Position numbers and translations under genes: made by a program. Shown piece by piece: positions 46,571 to 55,120 of a DNA stretch of 64,000 nt. Origin of the DNA: Enterococcus moraviensis ATCC BAA-383 (GTDB lineage Bacteria > Bacillota > Bacilli > Lactobacillales > Enterococcaceae); contig NZ_ASWB01000005.1 of NCBI RefSeq assembly GCF_000407445.1, forward strand, positions 124,001 to 188,000, in the 5' to 3' direction. The notes under the pieces were generated by a model that was not told the DNA's origin, made no database searches, and saw only the letters and a program-made list of their open reading frames with translations. How positions within the stretch are numbered: position 1 is the stretch's first letter; the number at the start of each line of letters is the position of its first letter.

Positions 46571-46894
46571 CTGATCACTCCTTACTATTATTATTAAGAT
46601 AAAAAACTTTTTTTTATTAATTTTAATGGACAAGCACAAACTCGTTCCACGCATGTCTGATTCTTCCATTATTAATCTAACATACTTTTATATAAGAAAA
46701 CAGTCGCTTTTATGGCTATTTCTAAGAAATCACTTCTAATGAAGAGATAATTCCATGATGTAAGTATTAAGAAAAAATAAGATTTTTCTTGATTTTTTAA
46801 TTTAAAAATTGTAAACTATACCTCAGTACAATAAATAATTATTAAATTCTGATTTTTCAGAAAATACTTTGGGTCTTTTAGGGAGGAAAATAGA
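46571..46894. promoter_or_regulatory. oppA promoter region with candidate TldR target
   Basis: No gene. The oppA promoter is TTGATT (46789-46794), 17-nt spacer, TAAACT (46812-46817), so transcription should start near 46825. Just downstream, on the minus strand, TTTAA (46846-46842) is followed by TAATTATT (46841-46834), which matches the candidate guide at 54969-54976. A protein bound there would block the start of oppA transcription. SD AGGGAGG precedes oppA. Confidence 0.55.
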
Positions 46895-48571
46895 ATGAAG
46901 TTAAAGAAGTCATTTGCTTTTGGATTCATCACTTTATTTAGTTTAACATTAGCAGCATGTGGTAACGGCGGTACAAAAACAGACGATTCAGGCAGCTCAA
47001 AAGCAGCCGATGGTAAACCAAGCGGCGAGCAAGTTTTCCGTGTCAATGTTTTACAAGAAATGCCAAGTGCCGATTTATCGTTAGCGACAGACGTTATCAG
47101 CTTTACTGCACTAAACAACGTATATGAAGGAATCTACCGTTTAAACTTAGATAATAAACCAGAACCAGCCGGAGCTAGTGAAGAAGCTGAAGTCAGTGAA
47201 GATGGTACTACTTATAAAATCAAACTGAACGAAAAAGCTAAATGGTCAGACGGCAAACCCGTAAAAGCAGAAGACTATGTCTATGGATGGCAACGTACAG
47301 TTGATCCAGCGACAGCTTCAGAGTACGCTTACCTTTATGAATCTGTAAAAAATGGTGCAGATATCGCAGCAGGTAAAAAAGACAAAGCTGAATTAGGAAT
47401 CAAAGCGACAGGTGATTATGAATTAGAAATTACATTAGAAAAAGCAACACCTTATTTTGATTATCTATTAGCCTTCCCGTCATTCTTCCCACAAAGAAAA
47501 GACATCGTGGAAAAATATGGTAAAGACTATGCTTCAAATAGTGATAACTCAGTTTATAATGGTCCATTTGTATTAGATGGTTTTGATGGAGCAGGAACAG
47601 ATACTGAGTGGTCATATAAGAAAAATAAAGAATATTGGGATGTAGATTCTGTAAAATTAGATGAAGTAAAAACGAACGTCGTGAAAGAAGCACCTACTTC
47701 ATATAACTTATTCCAAGATGGACAAGCTGATGATGTAACCTTAACTGGTGAATTAGCACAACAAGCAGCTAATGATCCAGCTCTTGTAATTCAAAAAGAA
47801 GCATCAACTCAATATATGGAATTAAATCAAATCGACGAAAATTCACCATATAGAAATGAAAATTTAAGAAAAGCAATCTCTTATTCAATCGATCGCAAAT
47901 CTTTAGTTGAAAAAATCTTAGGGGACGGATCAGTTGAACCTAAAGGATTAGTTCCAGCGGATATGGCTAAATCTCCAGACGGAAAAGAAGACTTTACAGA
48001 AGCAGCAGATGATAAGATTGCATTTGATAAAGAAAAAGCAAAAGAATATTGGGACAAAGCGAAGAAAGAATTAGGCATTAAAACATTAGATATCGATATC
48101 TTATCTTCTGATGCAGATTCTTCTAAGAAAACAGTTGAATATATCCAAGGAGCAATTCAAGAAAACTTGGAAGGAACTAAAGTAACTGTTAGCCCAGTAC
48201 CGTTCGCTGTACGTTTAGATCGTTCTAATAAAGGGGACTTTAAAGCTGTTATCGGCGGTTGGGGAGCTGACTATGTAGACCCAAGTAGTTTCTTAGATTT
48301 ATTCCAAACAGGTGTACCATATAACCGTGGACACTACAGCAACCCTGAATATGATAAATTAGTAAAAGAAGCGTCAACAACAAACGCTAATGATCCTGAA
48401 AAACGTTGGGAAAATATGGTTGATGCAGAGAAAACAATCATGGGTGACATGGGTGTGATCCCGCTTTATCAAAAAGCTGAAGCTCACTTGCGTGCTGAAA
48501 AAGTCAAAGATGTTGGTTTCCATCCAGCAGGTGCTCAATACGATTACAAATGGACATACATTTCAGAATAA
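46895..48571 (+). CDS. oppA: Oligopeptide-binding lipoprotein OppA
   Basis: 558 residues. Lipoprotein signal with lipobox LTLAAC (Cys 22), Gly/Ser-rich linker, then family-5 solute-binding domain: YEGIYRLNLDN, KWSDGKPVKAEDYVYGW, ISYSIDRKSLV and GWGADYVDPSSFLDLFQT. It captures peptides for the OppBCDF importer. Codon use is highly biased, implying abundant expression. A nested hairpin and a minus-strand gene separate it from oppB, so its level can be set apart from the permease genes. It may be the TldR target. Confidence 0.95.
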   Translation: MKLKKSFAFGFITLFSLTLAACGNGGTKTDDSGSSKAADGKPSGEQVFRVNVLQEMPSADLSLATDVISFTALNNVYEGIYRLNLDNKPEPAGASEEAEVSEDGTTYKIKLNEKAKWSDGKPVKAEDYVYGWQRTVDPATASEYAYLYESVKNGADIAAGKKDKAELGIKATGDYELEITLEKATPYFDYLLAFPSFFPQRKDIVEKYGKDYASNSDNSVYNGPFVLDGFDGAGTDTEWSYKKNKEYWDVDSVKLDEVKTNVVKEAPTSYNLFQDGQADDVTLTGELAQQAANDPALVIQKEASTQYMELNQIDENSPYRNENLRKAISYSIDRKSLVEKILGDGSVEPKGLVPADMAKSPDGKEDFTEAADDKIAFDKEKAKEYWDKAKKELGIKTLDIDILSSDADSSKKTVEYIQGAIQENLEGTKVTVSPVPFAVRLDRSNKGDFKAVIGGWGADYVDPSSFLDLFQTGVPYNRGHYSNPEYDKLVKEASTTNANDPEKRWENMVDAEKTIMGDMGVIPLYQKAEAHLRAEKVKDVGFHPAGAQYDYKWTYISE

Positions 48572-49143: not shown

Positions 49144-49225
49144 GTGCTTCATCCTTACTTAATTTTCTATCCTTACTTTATCGAAAAACACTGATGAAGT
49201 CAAAATAATCTCGGAGGTGTCATTC

Positions 49226-50167
49226 TTGAACAGTTTTGGAAAATATTTTCTTAAACGAGTTTTCTTTATGATCATCACATTGTGGTTGATCGCAACGATT
49301 ACGTTTTTCTTAATGCAATTATTACCAGGTACTCCTTATACCAACCAAGAAAAACTTAGTCCAGAAACAATTGCTATGTTGAATAAACAATCTGGATTGG
49401 ATAAACCAGTCATCGTTCAATATGGAATTTATTTAAAAAATCTTCTAGTTGGTGACTTTGGTATTTCATTCCAATTCAAAAACCAACCAGTAGCGAAACT
49501 TTTAGCTGGCCGTATTGGACCATCAGTACAATTAGGTGGACAAGCAATTATCTTTGGTACCTTAGTAGGTATTTTGCTAGGAATCATTGCAGCAATGCGT
49601 CAAAATACATGGGTCGATACATTGGCTACTTTAATGGCAATTTTAGGACGTTCAATTCCTAACTTCGTCTTTGCGGTATTATTACAATATATCTTTGCTA
49701 TGAAATTAAAAGTATTGCCAATTGCAATGTGGAATGGTTTTGCTTATACGATTTTACCGACAATCGCATTAGCTATGAGTCCAATGGCCGATTCCGCTAG
49801 GTTTATACGAACAGAAATGGTTGAAGTTTTACATAGTGACTATGTAGAGTTAGCGCGTGCTAAAGGCTTGAGCCGCTGGCAAGTGGCCGTTAGACACGGA
49901 CTTAGAAACAGTTTGATTCCATTGATTACGTTGTTAGGACCACTAGCAGTTGGTTTGATGACAGGATCATTAGTTGTAGAAAATATTTTTGCTATCCCGG
50001 GTATCGGGGAGCAATTCGTAAAATCAATCATGACAAATGACTACCCAACAATCATGGCAGTAACAATTTTATATTCTGCATTATTAGTTTTCGTAATCTT
50101 GATCGTTGATTTACTTTATGGATTGATTGATCCAAGAATTCGTGTTTCAGGAGGTGCCAAAGGTTAA
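49226..50167 (+). CDS. oppB: Oligopeptide permease OppB
   Basis: 313 residues. N-terminal helix then FFLMQLLPGTPY, the EAA loop LARAKGLSRWQVAVRHGLRNSLIPL, and EnIFAIPGIGEQFVKSI, all typical. The start is TTG 49226, 8 nt from GGAGG; GTG 49217 overlaps the SD itself. Membrane channel half with OppC. Confidence 0.93.
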   Translation: MNSFGKYFLKRVFFMIITLWLIATITFFLMQLLPGTPYTNQEKLSPETIAMLNKQSGLDKPVIVQYGIYLKNLLVGDFGISFQFKNQPVAKLLAGRIGPSVQLGGQAIIFGTLVGILLGIIAAMRQNTWVDTLATLMAILGRSIPNFVFAVLLQYIFAMKLKVLPIAMWNGFAYTILPTIALAMSPMADSARFIRTEMVEVLHSDYVELARAKGLSRWQVAVRHGLRNSLIPLITLLGPLAVGLMTGSLVVENIFAIPGIGEQFVKSIMTNDYPTIMAVTILYSALLVFVILIVDLLYGLIDPRIRVSGGAKG

Positions 50168-51219
50168 TGGAAATAGTTGACGTAAACAATGTCCCAGACA
50201 AAATTAAAGAAATACCAGCAGATGAATTCCAACCTTTGGATACATCAACAACAAAAGAACGTGAGCGAATTGCAACACCGTCATTAAGCTTTTTACAAGA
50301 TTCTTGGCGTCGATTGAAAAAAAATAAAGCTGCCGTGATTTCTTTGATCCTTTTAGGAATCATCATCTTTATCTCAATTATCACAATTTGGGTTTCACCT
50401 CATGACCCAACACAACAAAATGTTGCTTATATTAACTTACCACCACGTATTCCGTTTTTAGATAGTATCAACGGGTTTAACGGTACAGCAAATGTAGCTG
50501 GTAAAATGGTCGATAAGTATGCGCAAGCAAATGTTCCTGATAATGTGAACTTTTACCTTGGAACAGATGGTTTAGGACGTGACGTCTTAAGTCGTTTATT
50601 TATGGGAACACGTATCTCATTATTGATTGCATTTATCGCGGCATTACTTGATATTACGATCGGTGTAACATACGGTTTGATTTCAGGATTATTAGGCGGA
50701 CGTGTGGATACAGTAATGCAACGTGTTTTAGAAGTTCTTTCTGGAATTCCTAACCTTGTTGTAATGATCTTGATGCTGACTGTTTTTGATCCAGGTATTC
50801 TTTCTATCGTATTAGCGATGGTTATTACCAACTGGATTTCAATGGCTAGAATCGTTCGAGCTCAGACCATGAAATTAAAAGATCAAGAGTTCGTTTTAGC
50901 TGCCCAAACATTAGGTGAATCTCGTTTGAAGATCGCCATCAAACATATTTTGCCGAATATCTCAAGCGTGATCATCGTTCAAATGATGTTCAGTATCCCG
51001 TCGGCAATTTTCTTCGAAGCGTTTCTAAGTTTCATCGGTTTAGGATTAAGACCGCCGACCGCTTCACTTGGAACATTATTAAATGAAGGATATAAAACGT
51101 TCCGTTTCCTTCCATATTTGATGTGGATTCCTGCCGTAACCTTGTCAGTCGTAATGATTTGTTTCAACTTGTTAGCTGACGGACTACGTGATGCCTTCGA
51201 TCCTAAGATGAAAGAGTAG
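50167..51219 (+). CDS. oppC: Oligopeptide permease OppC
   Basis: 350 residues: cytosolic N-terminus, helix near 57-77, large external loop, GTDGLGRDVLSRLFMGTRIS, EAA loop LAAQTLGESRLKIAIKHIL, and FLSFIGLGLRPPTASLGTLL. ATG overlaps the oppB stop (TAATG). Confidence 0.94.
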   Translation: MEIVDVNNVPDKIKEIPADEFQPLDTSTTKERERIATPSLSFLQDSWRRLKKNKAAVISLILLGIIIFISIITIWVSPHDPTQQNVAYINLPPRIPFLDSINGFNGTANVAGKMVDKYAQANVPDNVNFYLGTDGLGRDVLSRLFMGTRISLLIAFIAALLDITIGVTYGLISGLLGGRVDTVMQRVLEVLSGIPNLVVMILMLTVFDPGILSIVLAMVITNWISMARIVRAQTMKLKDQEFVLAAQTLGESRLKIAIKHILPNISSVIIVQMMFSIPSAIFFEAFLSFIGLGLRPPTASLGTLLNEGYKTFRFLPYLMWIPAVTLSVVMICFNLLADGLRDAFDPKMKE

Positions 51220-51224
51220 AGTGA

Positions 51225-52286
51225 ATGACTATGGAAAAAGTATTAGAAGTAAAAGACTTACAGATTTCTTTTGATACGTTTGCTGGAAAAGTAAATGCTA
51301 TTCGTGGTGTGAGCTTTGAATTGTTCAAAGGGGAAACTCTTGCGATCGTAGGAGAATCTGGTAGTGGTAAATCAGTAACTACTAGAAGTATTATGCGATT
51401 ATTGAGCAGCAATGCAAACATCGATAATGGAGAAATTCTGTTTAAAGGTGAAGATATCGTACACAAAACGGAAAAACAAATGCAAACCATTCGTGGGAAA
51501 GAAATTGCGATGATTTTCCAAGACCCAATGACGTCATTGGACCCAACAATGCCGATCGGTAAACAAGTTGCTGAATCGTTGATCAAACACAATAAAGTGT
51601 CGAAAAAAGAAGGCTTAGATCAAGCTTTAGAATTATTAAAATTAGTAGGAATTCCAAACGCTGAAAAACGTTTGAAAAATTACCCACACCAATTTTCAGG
51701 TGGTCAACGTCAACGTATCGTAATTGCGATTGCTTTGATTTGTTACCCAGAAGTTCTAATTGCGGATGAACCAACAACGGCCTTGGATGTAACGATTCAA
51801 GCACAAATTTTAGAACTATTAAAAGATTTACAACAAAAAATCAGCACATCGATCATCTTTATCACCCATGATTTAGGTGTAGTAGCAAATGTTGCGGATC
51901 GTGTAGCAGTTATGTATGGCGGACGTTTAGTAGAAGTGGGAACATCAGAAGAAATCTTCTATAACCCACAACATCCATATACATGGGGTCTACTTGGCTC
52001 AATGCCGACAATGGAAGGAACCGAAGATAAGCTATATGCGATTCCTGGTTCACCTCCAGATTTGTTAGATCCACCAAAAGGAGATGCATTCTATCCGCGT
52101 AATGAATTTGCAATGAAAATCGACGCAGAAGAAGCACCACCGTATTTTGAAGTATCACCAACTCATAAAGCTGCAACGTGGTTATTAGCACCGCAAGCAC
52201 CAAAAATTACCCCTCCAGCTGAAATTGTAAGACGTTGGGCGATTTATGCTGAACGCCATAATACGACTGCAGGAGGCGTTAAATAA
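51225..52286 (+). CDS. oppD: Oligopeptide transporter ATPase OppD
   Basis: 353 residues: Walker [24 protein letters not shown], signature FSGGQRQR, Walker B LIADEPTTALD and the C-terminal oligopeptide/dipeptide domain GSPPDLLDPPKGDAFYPRN. It hydrolyses ATP with OppF. Six nt after oppC; SD is weak. Confidence 0.95.
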   Translation: MTMEKVLEVKDLQISFDTFAGKVNAIRGVSFELFKGETLAIVGESGSGKSVTTRSIMRLLSSNANIDNGEILFKGEDIVHKTEKQMQTIRGKEIAMIFQDPMTSLDPTMPIGKQVAESLIKHNKVSKKEGLDQALELLKLVGIPNAEKRLKNYPHQFSGGQRQRIVIAIALICYPEVLIADEPTTALDVTIQAQILELLKDLQQKISTSIIFITHDLGVVANVADRVAVMYGGRLVEVGTSEEIFYNPQHPYTWGLLGSMPTMEGTEDKLYAIPGSPPDLLDPPKGDAFYPRNEFAMKIDAEEAPPYFEVSPTHKAATWLLAPQAPKITPPAEIVRRWAIYAERHNTTAGGVK

Positions 52287-53245
52287 TGAGTGAAAAAAGA
52301 AAAGTACTTTTAGATGTTAAAGGACTAAAACAATATTTTAACGTTGGACGCCCTGACGAAGTTAGAGCAGTAGACGATATCAGTTTTCACATCTATGAAG
52401 GTGAAACTTTCGGATTGGTTGGAGAATCTGGTAGTGGTAAATCAACTACTGGTCGTAGCGTGATTCGTTTATATGATCCAACAGGTGGCGAAATCATCTT
52501 TGATGGAGATGACATCAGTAAAATTCGTTCAAAATCAGCGATGCAAGCATTTCGTCGTGAAGTGCAAATGATCTTCCAAGATCCTTATGCTTCGTTGAAT
52601 CCTAGAATGAAAGTGAATGATATCATTGCAGAAGGAATCGACATCAACCATTTAGCAAAAGATGCAGCTGAACGTGAATCAAAAGTCAACGAGTTGTTAA
52701 AAGTCGTTGGTCTTGATCCAAGTCATGGAACACGTTATCCACATGAATTTTCAGGTGGTCAGCGTCAACGTATCGGGATTGCTAGAGCATTAGCTGTTGA
52801 TCCACGCTTTATCATTTGTGATGAGCCAATCTCAGCATTGGATGTTTCGATTCAAGCACAAGTAGTCAATTTATTGCAAGATTTACAAAAAGATGCTGGG
52901 TTGACGTATTTGTTTATTGCCCATGATTTATCAATGGTAAAACATATTAGTGACCGTATCGGCGTTATGCACAGCGGAAGATTATTGGAAATGGGTTCTA
53001 GTGATGATGTCTATAACTTTGGTGTACATCCGTATACTGAAAGTTTGTTATCAGCTATTCCATTACCAGATCCAGATTACGAACGTACTCGTAAACGTAT
53101 TGTGTATAAACCAGAACCAGAAGACAATAAAGAACGTAAACTAAGAGAAATCACACCAGAACATTATGTGTATTGTTCTGAAGATGAAGTTGACGGTTAT
53201 CGTAAAAAAATTGAAGAAAAAAAAGCTAGAGCAAACCACGAGTAG
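52286..53245 (+). CDS. oppF: Oligopeptide transporter ATPase OppF
   Basis: 319 residues: [59 protein letters not shown], and the C-terminal [25 protein letters not shown] overlap with oppD. It ends the opp operon at a terminator; the TldR gene follows downstream. Confidence 0.95.
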
Positions 53246-53260
53246 TTTTGGCAAATGAAA

Positions 53261-53299
53261 TACTAGCTAGGAAAAAGTAGTGCTTTTTCTTAGCTAGCA
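53261..53299 (+). terminator. Terminator after oppF
   Basis: A 17-nt arm pair with one mismatch and one G-U-type change (53261-53277 and 53283-53299) followed by TTTTTAAA. It separates opp from tldR transcription. Confidence 0.75.
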
Positions 53300-53364: not shown

Positions 53365-53713
53365 GGGCTAGTCTCTCGGAAAAAGATAAAATCTGCCTGT
53401 AACAAAAAACGTTACAAACATATTTTCCTATTTTTCAGTCGAGACTAAGCGAGCCCGCTCAGCTTTTTATCTAATCTAGCTTTATGAGACAACTCTCTCG
53501 ACAAGTAGACAAATAGAGTGAAAGATAGAAACCATCTTTAAATCTATTTCCTAACTTGCTCAAGAGCTAGGCGTCTTACTCAGCTTTTTATTCAATCTAG
53601 CTTTACGGGCTAGTCTCTCGGAAAAAAGATAAAATCTGCCTGTGACAAAAAGCGTCACAAACAGATTTTCCTATTTTTCAGTCGAGACTAAGCGAGCCCG
53701 CTCAGCTTTTTAT
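53365..53713. repeat. Three tandem palindromic units between oppF and tldR
   Basis: Copies at 53365-53470 and 53607-53713 are nearly identical; a diverged unit lies between, giving a period of about 121 bp. Each copy folds into one long hairpin with GGGCTAGTCTC pairing with GAGACT and AGCCC. The inner stem differs compensatorily: TGTAAC/GTTACA in the first copy and TGTGAC/GTCACA in the second. No gene is present. Confidence 0.8.
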
Positions 53714-53730: not shown

Positions 53731-54855
53731 ATGAAGGTGTTAAAAGCGTATAAATATAGGCTTTACCCTACTTCAGTACAAGAAGAGTTTATAAAAAAAA
53801 CATTTTCTTGTGTTCGGTTGGTGTATAATCTTCTATTGCAGGAAAGAGTCCAATTGTATAAAGAATTGAAAGAAAATCCTGATTTAAAAGTTAAATTGCC
53901 GACACCTGCTCAGTATAAAAAAGAGCATCCTTGTCTAAAAGAGGTAGACAGTTTAGCGTTGTCAAATGCACAAGTATATTTAGATCGCGCATTTAAAAAA
54001 TTTTATAGAGAAAAATCAGTTGGATTTCCTAAATTAAAGCAAAAAAAGGATTCAGTTTCCTCTTATACAACGAACAATCAAAATGGGACAGTTAAAATTA
54101 TTGACGAAAAATATTTAAAAGTACCCAAATTGAAATCATTGTTGAAAATGAAGATGCATCGTCCAGTAATAGGGAAAATAAAGTCAGTAACGATTTCTTT
54201 AACTAAAAGCAATAAGTACTTTGTTTCAATCTTGTGTGAGGAAGAAATTCCAATAATAGAGAAGACTCATTCGGCAATCGGGATAACCTTAGGGGCTTCA
54301 GAATTTGCTGTATTATCAAATGGAAATCGTATCGATAATGATAAATACACAAAGGAATTTGAACAACGGATCACTCGAGAAGAAAGAAAATTGCAGAGGC
54401 GTAAAGAAATTGCAAAGGTAAAAGGAACAGATCTTTCACAGCAAAAAAATTACCAAAAACAAAAGCTTAAAGTTGCAAAAATGCGAGAAAAATTAATGAA
54501 TCAACGAGTCGATTTTCTTAATAAGATCACTACAGAGATTATTAGAAAGTATGATTTGATTTGTATTGAAGACATCCACCAAGCAGATGTTTATAGAAAT
54601 AATAAATTGTATCGTGGTGTTTCAGATGTTTCTTGGGCTTTATTTGTTTCAAAGTTAGAATACAAAGCATCCTGGTATAACAAGAGATTAATCAAAGTTT
54701 CAGCATGTGGAAAATGTTCTGAACATTCAGATAATACACAGGTAAGTCAAATGTTCACACAAGATATCAATGAGCAAAAAGGATTACATGATCCAGAAAC
54801 CGCAGCAAGTATTCAAGTATTGATAAAAGGACTAAAAGAAACCACACGTAAGTAA
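53731..54855 (+). CDS. tldR: TldR: nuclease-dead TnpB homologue, probable RNA-guided repressor
   Basis: 374 residues with TnpB architecture: N-terminal OrfB HTH (KAYKYRLYPTSVQEEF), wedge region, RuvC core and a zinc-ribbon remnant. RuvC-I GITLGASEFAVL has Thr186 where active TnpB has Asp. RuvC-II E280 (ICIEDIH) is kept. RuvC-III HDPETAAS has Glu356 for Asp. Only one zinc CxxC pair remains (C326, C329). Cleavage should be lost while RNA and DNA binding could persist, as in TldR proteins, one group of which is known beside oppF in Enterococcus. No tnpA or transposon ends are seen. ATG 53731 follows TAGGGTGG. Confidence 0.9.
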   Translation: MKVLKAYKYRLYPTSVQEEFIKKTFSCVRLVYNLLLQERVQLYKELKENPDLKVKLPTPAQYKKEHPCLKEVDSLALSNAQVYLDRAFKKFYREKSVGFPKLKQKKDSVSSYTTNNQNGTVKIIDEKYLKVPKLKSLLKMKMHRPVIGKIKSVTISLTKSNKYFVSILCEEEIPIIEKTHSAIGITLGASEFAVLSNGNRIDNDKYTKEFEQRITREERKLQRRKEIAKVKGTDLSQQKNYQKQKLKVAKMREKLMNQRVDFLNKITTEIIRKYDLICIEDIHQADVYRNNKLYRGVSDVSWALFVSKLEYKASWYNKRLIKVSACGKCSEHSDNTQVSQMFTQDINEQKGLHDPETAASIQVLIKGLKETTRK

Positions 54856-54859
54856 TAAA

Positions 54860-54984
54860 GAAAACTGTAGGAACTACAGGGTTAGCCTAGGGTATATAAG
54901 ATAGAGATAGCGTTCAGTCGATCATTTGTCTTTTTCTAGGAAATTTCTAGTTACTAGAAATAGTTCACTAATTATTAGTTAATG
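54860..54984 (+). ncRNA. TldR guide RNA (omega-RNA-like), 5' end uncertain
   Basis: Directly after tldR are a CTGTAG-GAA-CTACAG hairpin (54865-54879), CCTAG/CTAGG segments able to pair as a pseudoknot (54886-54890 with 54936-54940), and a perfect 8-bp hairpin ATTTCTAG/CTAGAAAT (54943-54961). Then comes AGTTCAC (54962-54968). TnpB guide RNAs end in such a right-end hairpin plus TTCA-type linker, with the guide immediately 3'. The guide would begin TAATTATTAG at 54969. The scaffold probably extends back into tldR. Confidence 0.65.
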
Positions 54985-54999
54985 AAAAATAAAAAGTTT

Positions 55000-55059
55000 A
55001 ACTTTATTCTATTTAGACAAGCAAGAAATTGTTTTTCTAAAATAGAGTAAAGTTTTTTT
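55000..55059 (+). terminator. Terminator of the tldR/guide transcript
   Basis: Arms 55000-55016 and 55037-55054 pair over about 17 bp with one G-U and one bulge, followed by TTTTTTT. Confidence 0.8.
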
Positions 55060-55120
55060 CTGATTTTACTAAGAAGTATAGTACAATGGACAGTAAGTTA
55101 AGTCAAAAAAAGGGGGAGCC

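Follow-up and report, generated by a model that had tools for sequence, protein, structure and literature searches.

A nuclease-dead TnpB homologue behind oppF in Enterococcus moraviensis as a probable RNA-guided repressor of oligopeptide uptake

The founding paper on TldR proteins is that of Wiegand et al. in Nature 2024, and an oppF-linked group from Enterococcus reportedly belongs to this family. The proteins of that group are TnpB-like and nuclease-dead, and are encoded behind oppF with a guide RNA downstream. The locus described here is arranged likewise; its gene lies behind oppF in Enterococcus, which places its product in the oppF-TldR subgroup. Putative sites before livJ, a dppD-like gene and dtpT are proposed here, as a regulon that may be new to the literature. 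In the literature searched, no paper joining TldR, TnpB and oppF was found. Another example is the fliC TldR of Enterobacter prophages, likewise a RuvC-dead TnpB with a guide RNA, for which repression at a promoter region and the sufficiency of a short guide, of 6 nt, have been reported in a follow-up paper (PMC13418256). That protein is phage-borne and aimed at flagellin, whereas the present one is found beside opp across a family and appears to be aimed at peptide uptake; the main text of PMC13418256 contains no word beginning 'enterococc'. The nearest active relatives in our tree are the TnpBs of ISEfa4-type IS200/IS605 elements (the name ISEfa4 is taken from a record's annotation), which have in common with this locus the scaffold end AGTTCAC and the TTTAA of the left edge, but differ in their active RuvC motifs, TnpA partner, multiple copies and insertion-specific guide. 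Sequence and fold are also shared with the TnpB of ISDra2 (8exa, 8bf8). Finally, the Rfam family RF02841 (Ref70), whose match covers the scaffold discussed below, is described by Rfam as a sRNA only, and is read here as the guide RNA of a TldR.

The window (the whole 64-kb stretch of DNA analysed, from a 3.6-Mb genome) contains the opp operon followed by the gene in question. The best-supported reading of this gene is that of a nuclease-dead, exapted, oppF-linked TnpB that would act as an RNA-guided repressor, where it is the repression itself that we infer. The features on which the argument depends are the following.

46789..46817, plus strand: oppA promoter, read by eye from sequence and conservation (-35 TTGATT at 46789-46794, 17 nt, -10 TAAACT at 46812-46817).
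46834..46846, minus strand: putative target in the oppA promoter, TAM TTTAA (46846-46842) plus the 8 nt TAATTATT (46841-46834), from guide match and conservation.
46895..48571, plus strand: oppA, which encodes the oligopeptide-binding protein and opens the putative target operon (open reading frame and profiles).
49217..53245, plus strand: oppB, oppC, oppD and oppF (open reading frames and profiles; names follow the gene order of an annotated opp1 operon).
53263..53297, plus strand: terminator-like hairpin 3' of oppF (terminator scan).
53365..53713, no strand assigned: dispersed repeat of about 110 bp, two copies between oppF and tldR (repeat search).
53731..54855, plus strand: tldR, nuclease-dead TnpB homologue of 374 aa (open reading frame, profile and structure comparisons).
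54862..54968, plus strand: scaffold of the putative guide RNA, four helices, ending in AGTTCAC, inside the Ref70 match (Rfam and covariation; boundary from the right ends of active elements).
54969..54977, plus strand: guide TAATTATTA (by its position after the scaffold end).
55000..55059, plus strand: probable intrinsic terminator of the guide-RNA transcript, a long hairpin with a T run (fold of -21.7 kcal/mol for 54995-55062).

The tldR frame extends from an ATG at 53731 to a stop codon at 54853-54855, that is, 374 codons (a mechanical list of open reading frames starts it at an upstream TTG, giving 380), and the gene is present in a single copy in its own genome. Its product matches HTH_OrfB_IS605 (E 3e-18) and OrfB_IS605 (E 2e-16) of Pfam, as well as guided_TnpB (E 5e-65, above cut-off) and IS200_TnpB (E 1e-98, below cut-off) of NCBIfam, and its residues 5-326 align with ISDra2 TnpB 8bf8 (E 3e-50); these matches and the open frame bear out the preliminary description, made from the DNA letters, of a TnpB-like protein encoded by 374 open codons. 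The AlphaFold model suggested there as a check has a moderate mean pLDDT of 69, and its closest structures are indeed TnpBs (best 8exa, E 7e-18, rmsd 13.6). In all three kinds of comparison (Pfam, ISDra2 alignment and model), the homology spans the RNA/DNA-binding part of the protein. The cleavage site is different. Opposite D191 and E278 of 8bf8, catalytic residues of ISDra2 TnpB, stand Thr186 and Glu280, and the RuvC-III Asp is replaced by Glu356, so that the intact D-E-D triad expected of an active TnpB endonuclease, and present in 8/8 active TnpB loci of the same alignment, is not found in the window protein. This loss is shared by its relatives, which fall into two clades. In clade 1 (356-375 aa; 21 loci from the genus of the window and one from an E. 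faecalis-like genome), the RuvC-I position is Thr, Ser or Cys (18, 3 and 1 of 22 loci) and never Asp, while the RuvC-II Glu and a Glu at the RuvC-III position are each found in 22/22. In clade 2 (51 loci from other genera; a shortened C terminus and a length of 305-361 aa, apart from one broken frame of 228), the RuvC-I Asp is absent from 51/51 loci, the RuvC-II Glu is kept in 34/51, and the RuvC-III region is missing from 51/51. The Thr at RuvC-I and the Glu at RuvC-III named in the preliminary description thus stand, and the loss of the RuvC triad that it also mentions has to be corrected for RuvC-II: since its Glu is retained throughout clade 1, two of the three catalytic residues are lost, not three. 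The claim of a half zinc ribbon was accurate, as one CxxC of two remains, and this one is not conserved among relatives.

Directly 3' of the tldR stop codon, positions 54859-54980 match Ref70, an Enterococcus sRNA, with 119.9 bits against a gathering cut-off of 115. Among nine other loci scanned, the cut-off is reached in one (the E. faecalis-like one), and eight clade-2 loci fall below it; Ref70 by name was not found in the literature searched. The scaffold is supported by covariation in clade 1, where 25 pairs, 11 of them with compensatory changes, were detected among 22 sequences and none of 500 shuffles reached any of five measures. The consensus fold of clade 2 is weak (four pairs, one with compensation), and the fold of the single window sequence (54700-55020) is not more stable than those of shuffled copies (z -1.3). 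The element CACTAATTAT, composed of the scaffold end and the first seven guide bases, lies 3' of tldR in 71/73 loci, and hence these seven bases are fixed; downstream of the two other homologues (L175 and L196, both away from opp) no guide-RNA motif was found. The guide-RNA alignments (A3 and A4) comprise 66 distinct sequences in which CACTAATTAT was required, and leave out the two loci without it, L190 (whose scaffold overlaps the stop codon), duplicates and out-of-range loci. In clade-2 guides (L149-L200) a conserved GATAAACCA-like tail follows the 7-nt seed; it was matched to no target. A comparison of the guide-RNA region with plasmids gave no match, and the hairpin at 55000..55059 was not listed by a simple terminator scan.

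Active ISEfa4-like elements provide the boundaries. Their right ends read AGTTCAC followed by unrelated flanks in 20/20 copies, and their left ends begin with TTTAA in 15/15 (the next base being C in 14 and T in one) behind unrelated flanks. Because the right ends stop there, the guide is read as starting directly after TTCAC; and because of how IS200/IS605 elements insert, TTTAA is most simply interpreted as the TAM and not as the element's own end. The guide of a mobile element would change at every insertion, whereas the first seven bases of the tldR guide do not vary. Accordingly, the earlier statement that no transposon end is present needs one amendment, since the guide RNA preserved behind tldR descends from the right end of the transposon and is a key part of the locus; otherwise it was right.

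The opp promoter contains the sequence that such a guide would be expected to recognize. In the window, TTTAATAATTATT (TAM plus eight guide bases) occurs once, with 0.03 occurrences expected, and begins 16 nt behind the -10 of oppA, a promoter that a consensus scan did not list. The match is short (8 nt) and AT-rich, and the strand of the target is ambiguous because TAATTA is palindromic; a 9-nt guide match on the plus strand at the same site was rejected as target for want of a TTTAA TAM. A one-genome k-mer comparison of the guide RNA with the oppA upstream region gave nine shared 9-mers, in AT-rich DNA. Since six guide bases are enough for the fliC TldR, an address of 7 nt is plausible. The clade-2 opp promoters have the TAM with 6-7 guide bases on the opposite strand, between the -35 and the -10. 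Across the Enterococcaceae, TTTAATAATTA (TAM plus six guide bases) is present at most 150 bp before oppA in 60/60 testable tldR loci (13 of the 73 were not testable), and together with its reverse complement it constitutes the most shared 11-mers in front of these genes; of 19 alternative orders of these six guide letters, none is present in more than 12/60 loci. Site and gene are also absent together: the best oppA promoter carries TTTAATAATTA in 0/15 genomes without an oppF-linked tldR, although 13 of these belong to one genus and are thus not independent events, and the oppA used for G003 and G092 may not be the orthologue. In G028, from the genus that supplies the 13, both tldR and site are present. 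TnpB matches of transposon type occur in some of these 15 genomes, the check covering motifs in G024 and IS right ends in G035 and G039.

From this evidence we consider it very probable that the oppF-linked TldR with its Ref70 guide represses opp in an RNA-guided manner, in the style of CRISPRi. The TnpB of an ISEfa4-like IS200/IS605 element would have lost RuvC cleavage while keeping RNA and DNA binding, and the transcript behind the tldR stop codon would yield the guide RNA. The resulting complex would scan for the TAM TTTAA, and the fixed short guide would pair with the opp promoter through its first 7-8 nt, TAATTAT(T). Bound to uncut DNA, the complex would block RNA polymerase and lower oppABCDF transcription, and in loci whose tldR lies directly behind oppF this would close a negative feedback loop. 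Complex formation, binding, repression as the direction of the effect, and feedback are what we infer. The distance from the end of oppF to the start of tldR is 485 bp in the window, 40 bp in the E. faecalis-type locus and 54-896 bp in the rest of clade 1, and has a median of 22 bp in clade 2 (41 loci), which suggests that clade-2 tldR is co-transcribed with opp under negative feedback. For the window, tldR had been assigned its own transcription unit after a terminator closing opp. The terminator-like hairpin at 53263-53297 agrees with the second part of that claim; a separate unit is not established, because no plus-strand promoter was found between oppF and tldR by the consensus scan and tldR lies close behind oppF in many relatives. 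The same interval holds no open reading frame of at least 80 aa, and therefore no transposase partner. Its two repeat copies (53365-53470 and 53607-53713) contain hairpins and match 59 places in the 3.6-Mb genome, several adjoining one another; these repeats are not part of the mechanism.

Alternatively, TldR might bind as proposed but activate or merely tune opp, or might still nick DNA by means of Glu280, Glu356 and Asp354. In fact, Glu280 and Asp354 are invariant in 21/21 proteins of alignment A1. The RuvC-I Asp, however, is replaced in all clade-1 loci, and the sites are placed on core promoter elements or just behind them, so that a complex bound there should act as a block; we regard this alternative as improbable. 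Quite improbable, too, is the possibility that Ref70 is an ordinary antisense sRNA acting on the oppA leader mRNA, and that the TnpB remnant merely supplies or stabilises it. Rfam catalogues Ref70 as a sRNA, and the near-palindromic clade-1 site lies behind the -10, in a probable leader, as antisense pairing would have it. Nevertheless, the clade-2 site between -35 and -10 is not transcribed from that promoter, the TldR protein is under purifying selection, and the TTTAA known from the left edge of active elements is conserved beside the site, although pairing would not need it.

Guided repression by TldR may extend to other importers. In the 3.6-Mb genome of the window, TTTAATAATTAT (TAM plus seven guide bases) occurs only three times (the control, six), before oppA, before a gene for a branched-chain amino-acid binding protein (livJ in this text) and before a dppD-like gene. 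In 18/22 genomes of the genus the livJ site is conserved at a nearly fixed place behind the -10, also in G003 though it has no tldR. At G000:C1:905274-905286 (L229) it consists of the TAM and an 8-nt guide match. Just upstream of the livJ site there is a CodY-like box. The dppD-like gene was found in 18/22 genomes, with an 8-base site in seven, a 6-base site in two more and none in nine. Genus-wide, 50 exact TTTAATAATTATT 13-mer sites were counted against 49 reversed-control sites in the 22 genomes; since numbers are not enriched, we rely on site position and conservation. By a simple ORF call, 47 of the 50 are intergenic, and among those not before oppA orthologues the proportion is 26/29 vs 7/30 of the control sites (30 of the 49 were classified). 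Fourteen of the 29 precede dppD-like genes (7), livJ (4) or paralogues of oppA (3, one of them judged from sequence likeness alone), and 15 lie before other genes, before no gene or inside one; these counts are not independent, because orthologues recur. The 13-mer is also seen 33-50 bp before the same 445-aa open reading frame in two species of the genus (L311 and L312).

Another example is dtpT, coding for an oligopeptide:H+ symporter (TIGR00924, E 4e-129), whose promoter contains TTTAATAATTAT in 17/25 clade-2 genomes (upstream regions L399-L425; G072, with only 195 bp upstream, is not fully testable). In these genomes no 12-mers before dtpT are shared more widely than TTTAATAATTAT and a word that overlaps it; upstream of dtpT in G000 and G022, TTTAATAATTAT was not found. 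In one genus the site overlaps a TATAAT word, and the dtpT matches L403 (G057) and L404 (G046) have one stop codon each. A six-genome scan gave 19 sites outside the window's genome: five before oppA, three before dtpT and 11 elsewhere (four inside genes). In the E. faecalis-like genome, the oppA site is the only one in a promoter. This pattern points to a small regulon of uptake genes, addressed by a guide whose working length would be 7 nt. We lean towards viewing TldR-Ref70 as a small global regulator with a fixed guide, of which TAATTAT would be the working part, that controls opp, liv and dpp-like ABC importers in the E. faecalis-like clade, and opp and dtpT in other enterococci. Promoters would join or leave this regulon through gain or loss of TTTAATAATTAT, and between the clades the target in opp would itself have moved. 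An ordinary explanation of the promoter block, as the site of a conventional DNA-binding regulator or a promoter element whose likeness to the guide is coincidental, is highly improbable. The block is certainly AT-rich, near-palindromic and close to -10 elements and CodY-like boxes; however, its place relative to the -35 and -10 differs among clade-1 opp, clade-2 opp, livJ and dtpT, the word consists of the transposon's TTTAA followed by guide sequence, and it is missing where the oppF-linked tldR is missing.

If RNA-guided repression by TldR is correct, a domesticated transposon nuclease and its guide RNA serve throughout the enterococci as a resident transcription factor for core nutrition, an sRNA listed by Rfam without a function can be read as a guide RNA, and TldR is provided with a concrete list of targets. 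Should the regulon indeed span several promoters, its evolution under an RNA-guided factor with a 7-nt address would resemble that of regulons under protein repressors. Enterococcal Opp systems also import signalling peptides, so that a TldR switch could affect more than nutrition.

Regarding its distribution, tldR is present in 21/22 genomes of the window's genus, one copy each, and a second, separate scan has E. caccae, E. ureasiticus, E. plantarum and E. rivorum among its named carriers. Some TnpB/TldR match was obtained in 82/105 genomes of the family; from these matches, though not from every one, 60 stretches were taken (52 TldR-like and 8 active TnpB), and an OppF of at least 70% identity adjoins 42 of the 52 tldR loci outside the genus, extending the synteny with opp beyond it. 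The window protein is 51-55% identical to two active TnpBs vs 36-43% to most of clade 2, which had suggested that the two clades were exapted independently at a single locus. This was rejected, since FastTree (108 sequences, 324 columns, SH-like supports) places the two TldR clades together (0.919), next to the TnpBs of Enterococcus IS elements (0.925), when rooted at a TnpB; with midpoint rooting, TldR clade 2 branches first. The tree, which the preliminary description had proposed as a check, is therefore consistent with one exaptation. The comparison of dN/dS with neighbouring genes, also proposed there, indicates purifying selection on tldR: its median pairwise dN/dS is 0.069 (26 pairs of 8 loci), between oppF (0.022) and oppA (0.102), and is approximate because the median dS, 1.33, is near saturation. 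That tldR is a decaying, functionless transposon remnant, as the loss of two catalytic residues and half a zinc ribbon might suggest, is barely credible and was rejected on this dN/dS and on conservation (21/22 genomes, a covarying guide RNA that is kept, and synteny beyond the genus), in agreement with the original view of the gene as exapted. In E. faecalis the locus is ordered opp1ABCDF-tnpB-infC, and its TnpB is annotated as 'RNA-guided endonuclease TnpB family protein'. Another E. faecalis record, of 747 kb and labelled 'plasmid' (NZ_CP143580.1, L370), carries opp1, tldR, infC, rpmI and rplT, which have the look of core chromosomal genes. Finally, an unverified 66-kb E. faecalis 'phage' record (OR846599.1, L371) contains a tldR of 57.9% identity, the same value as for an opp-linked E. 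faecalis copy; the assembly of this record possibly includes host DNA.
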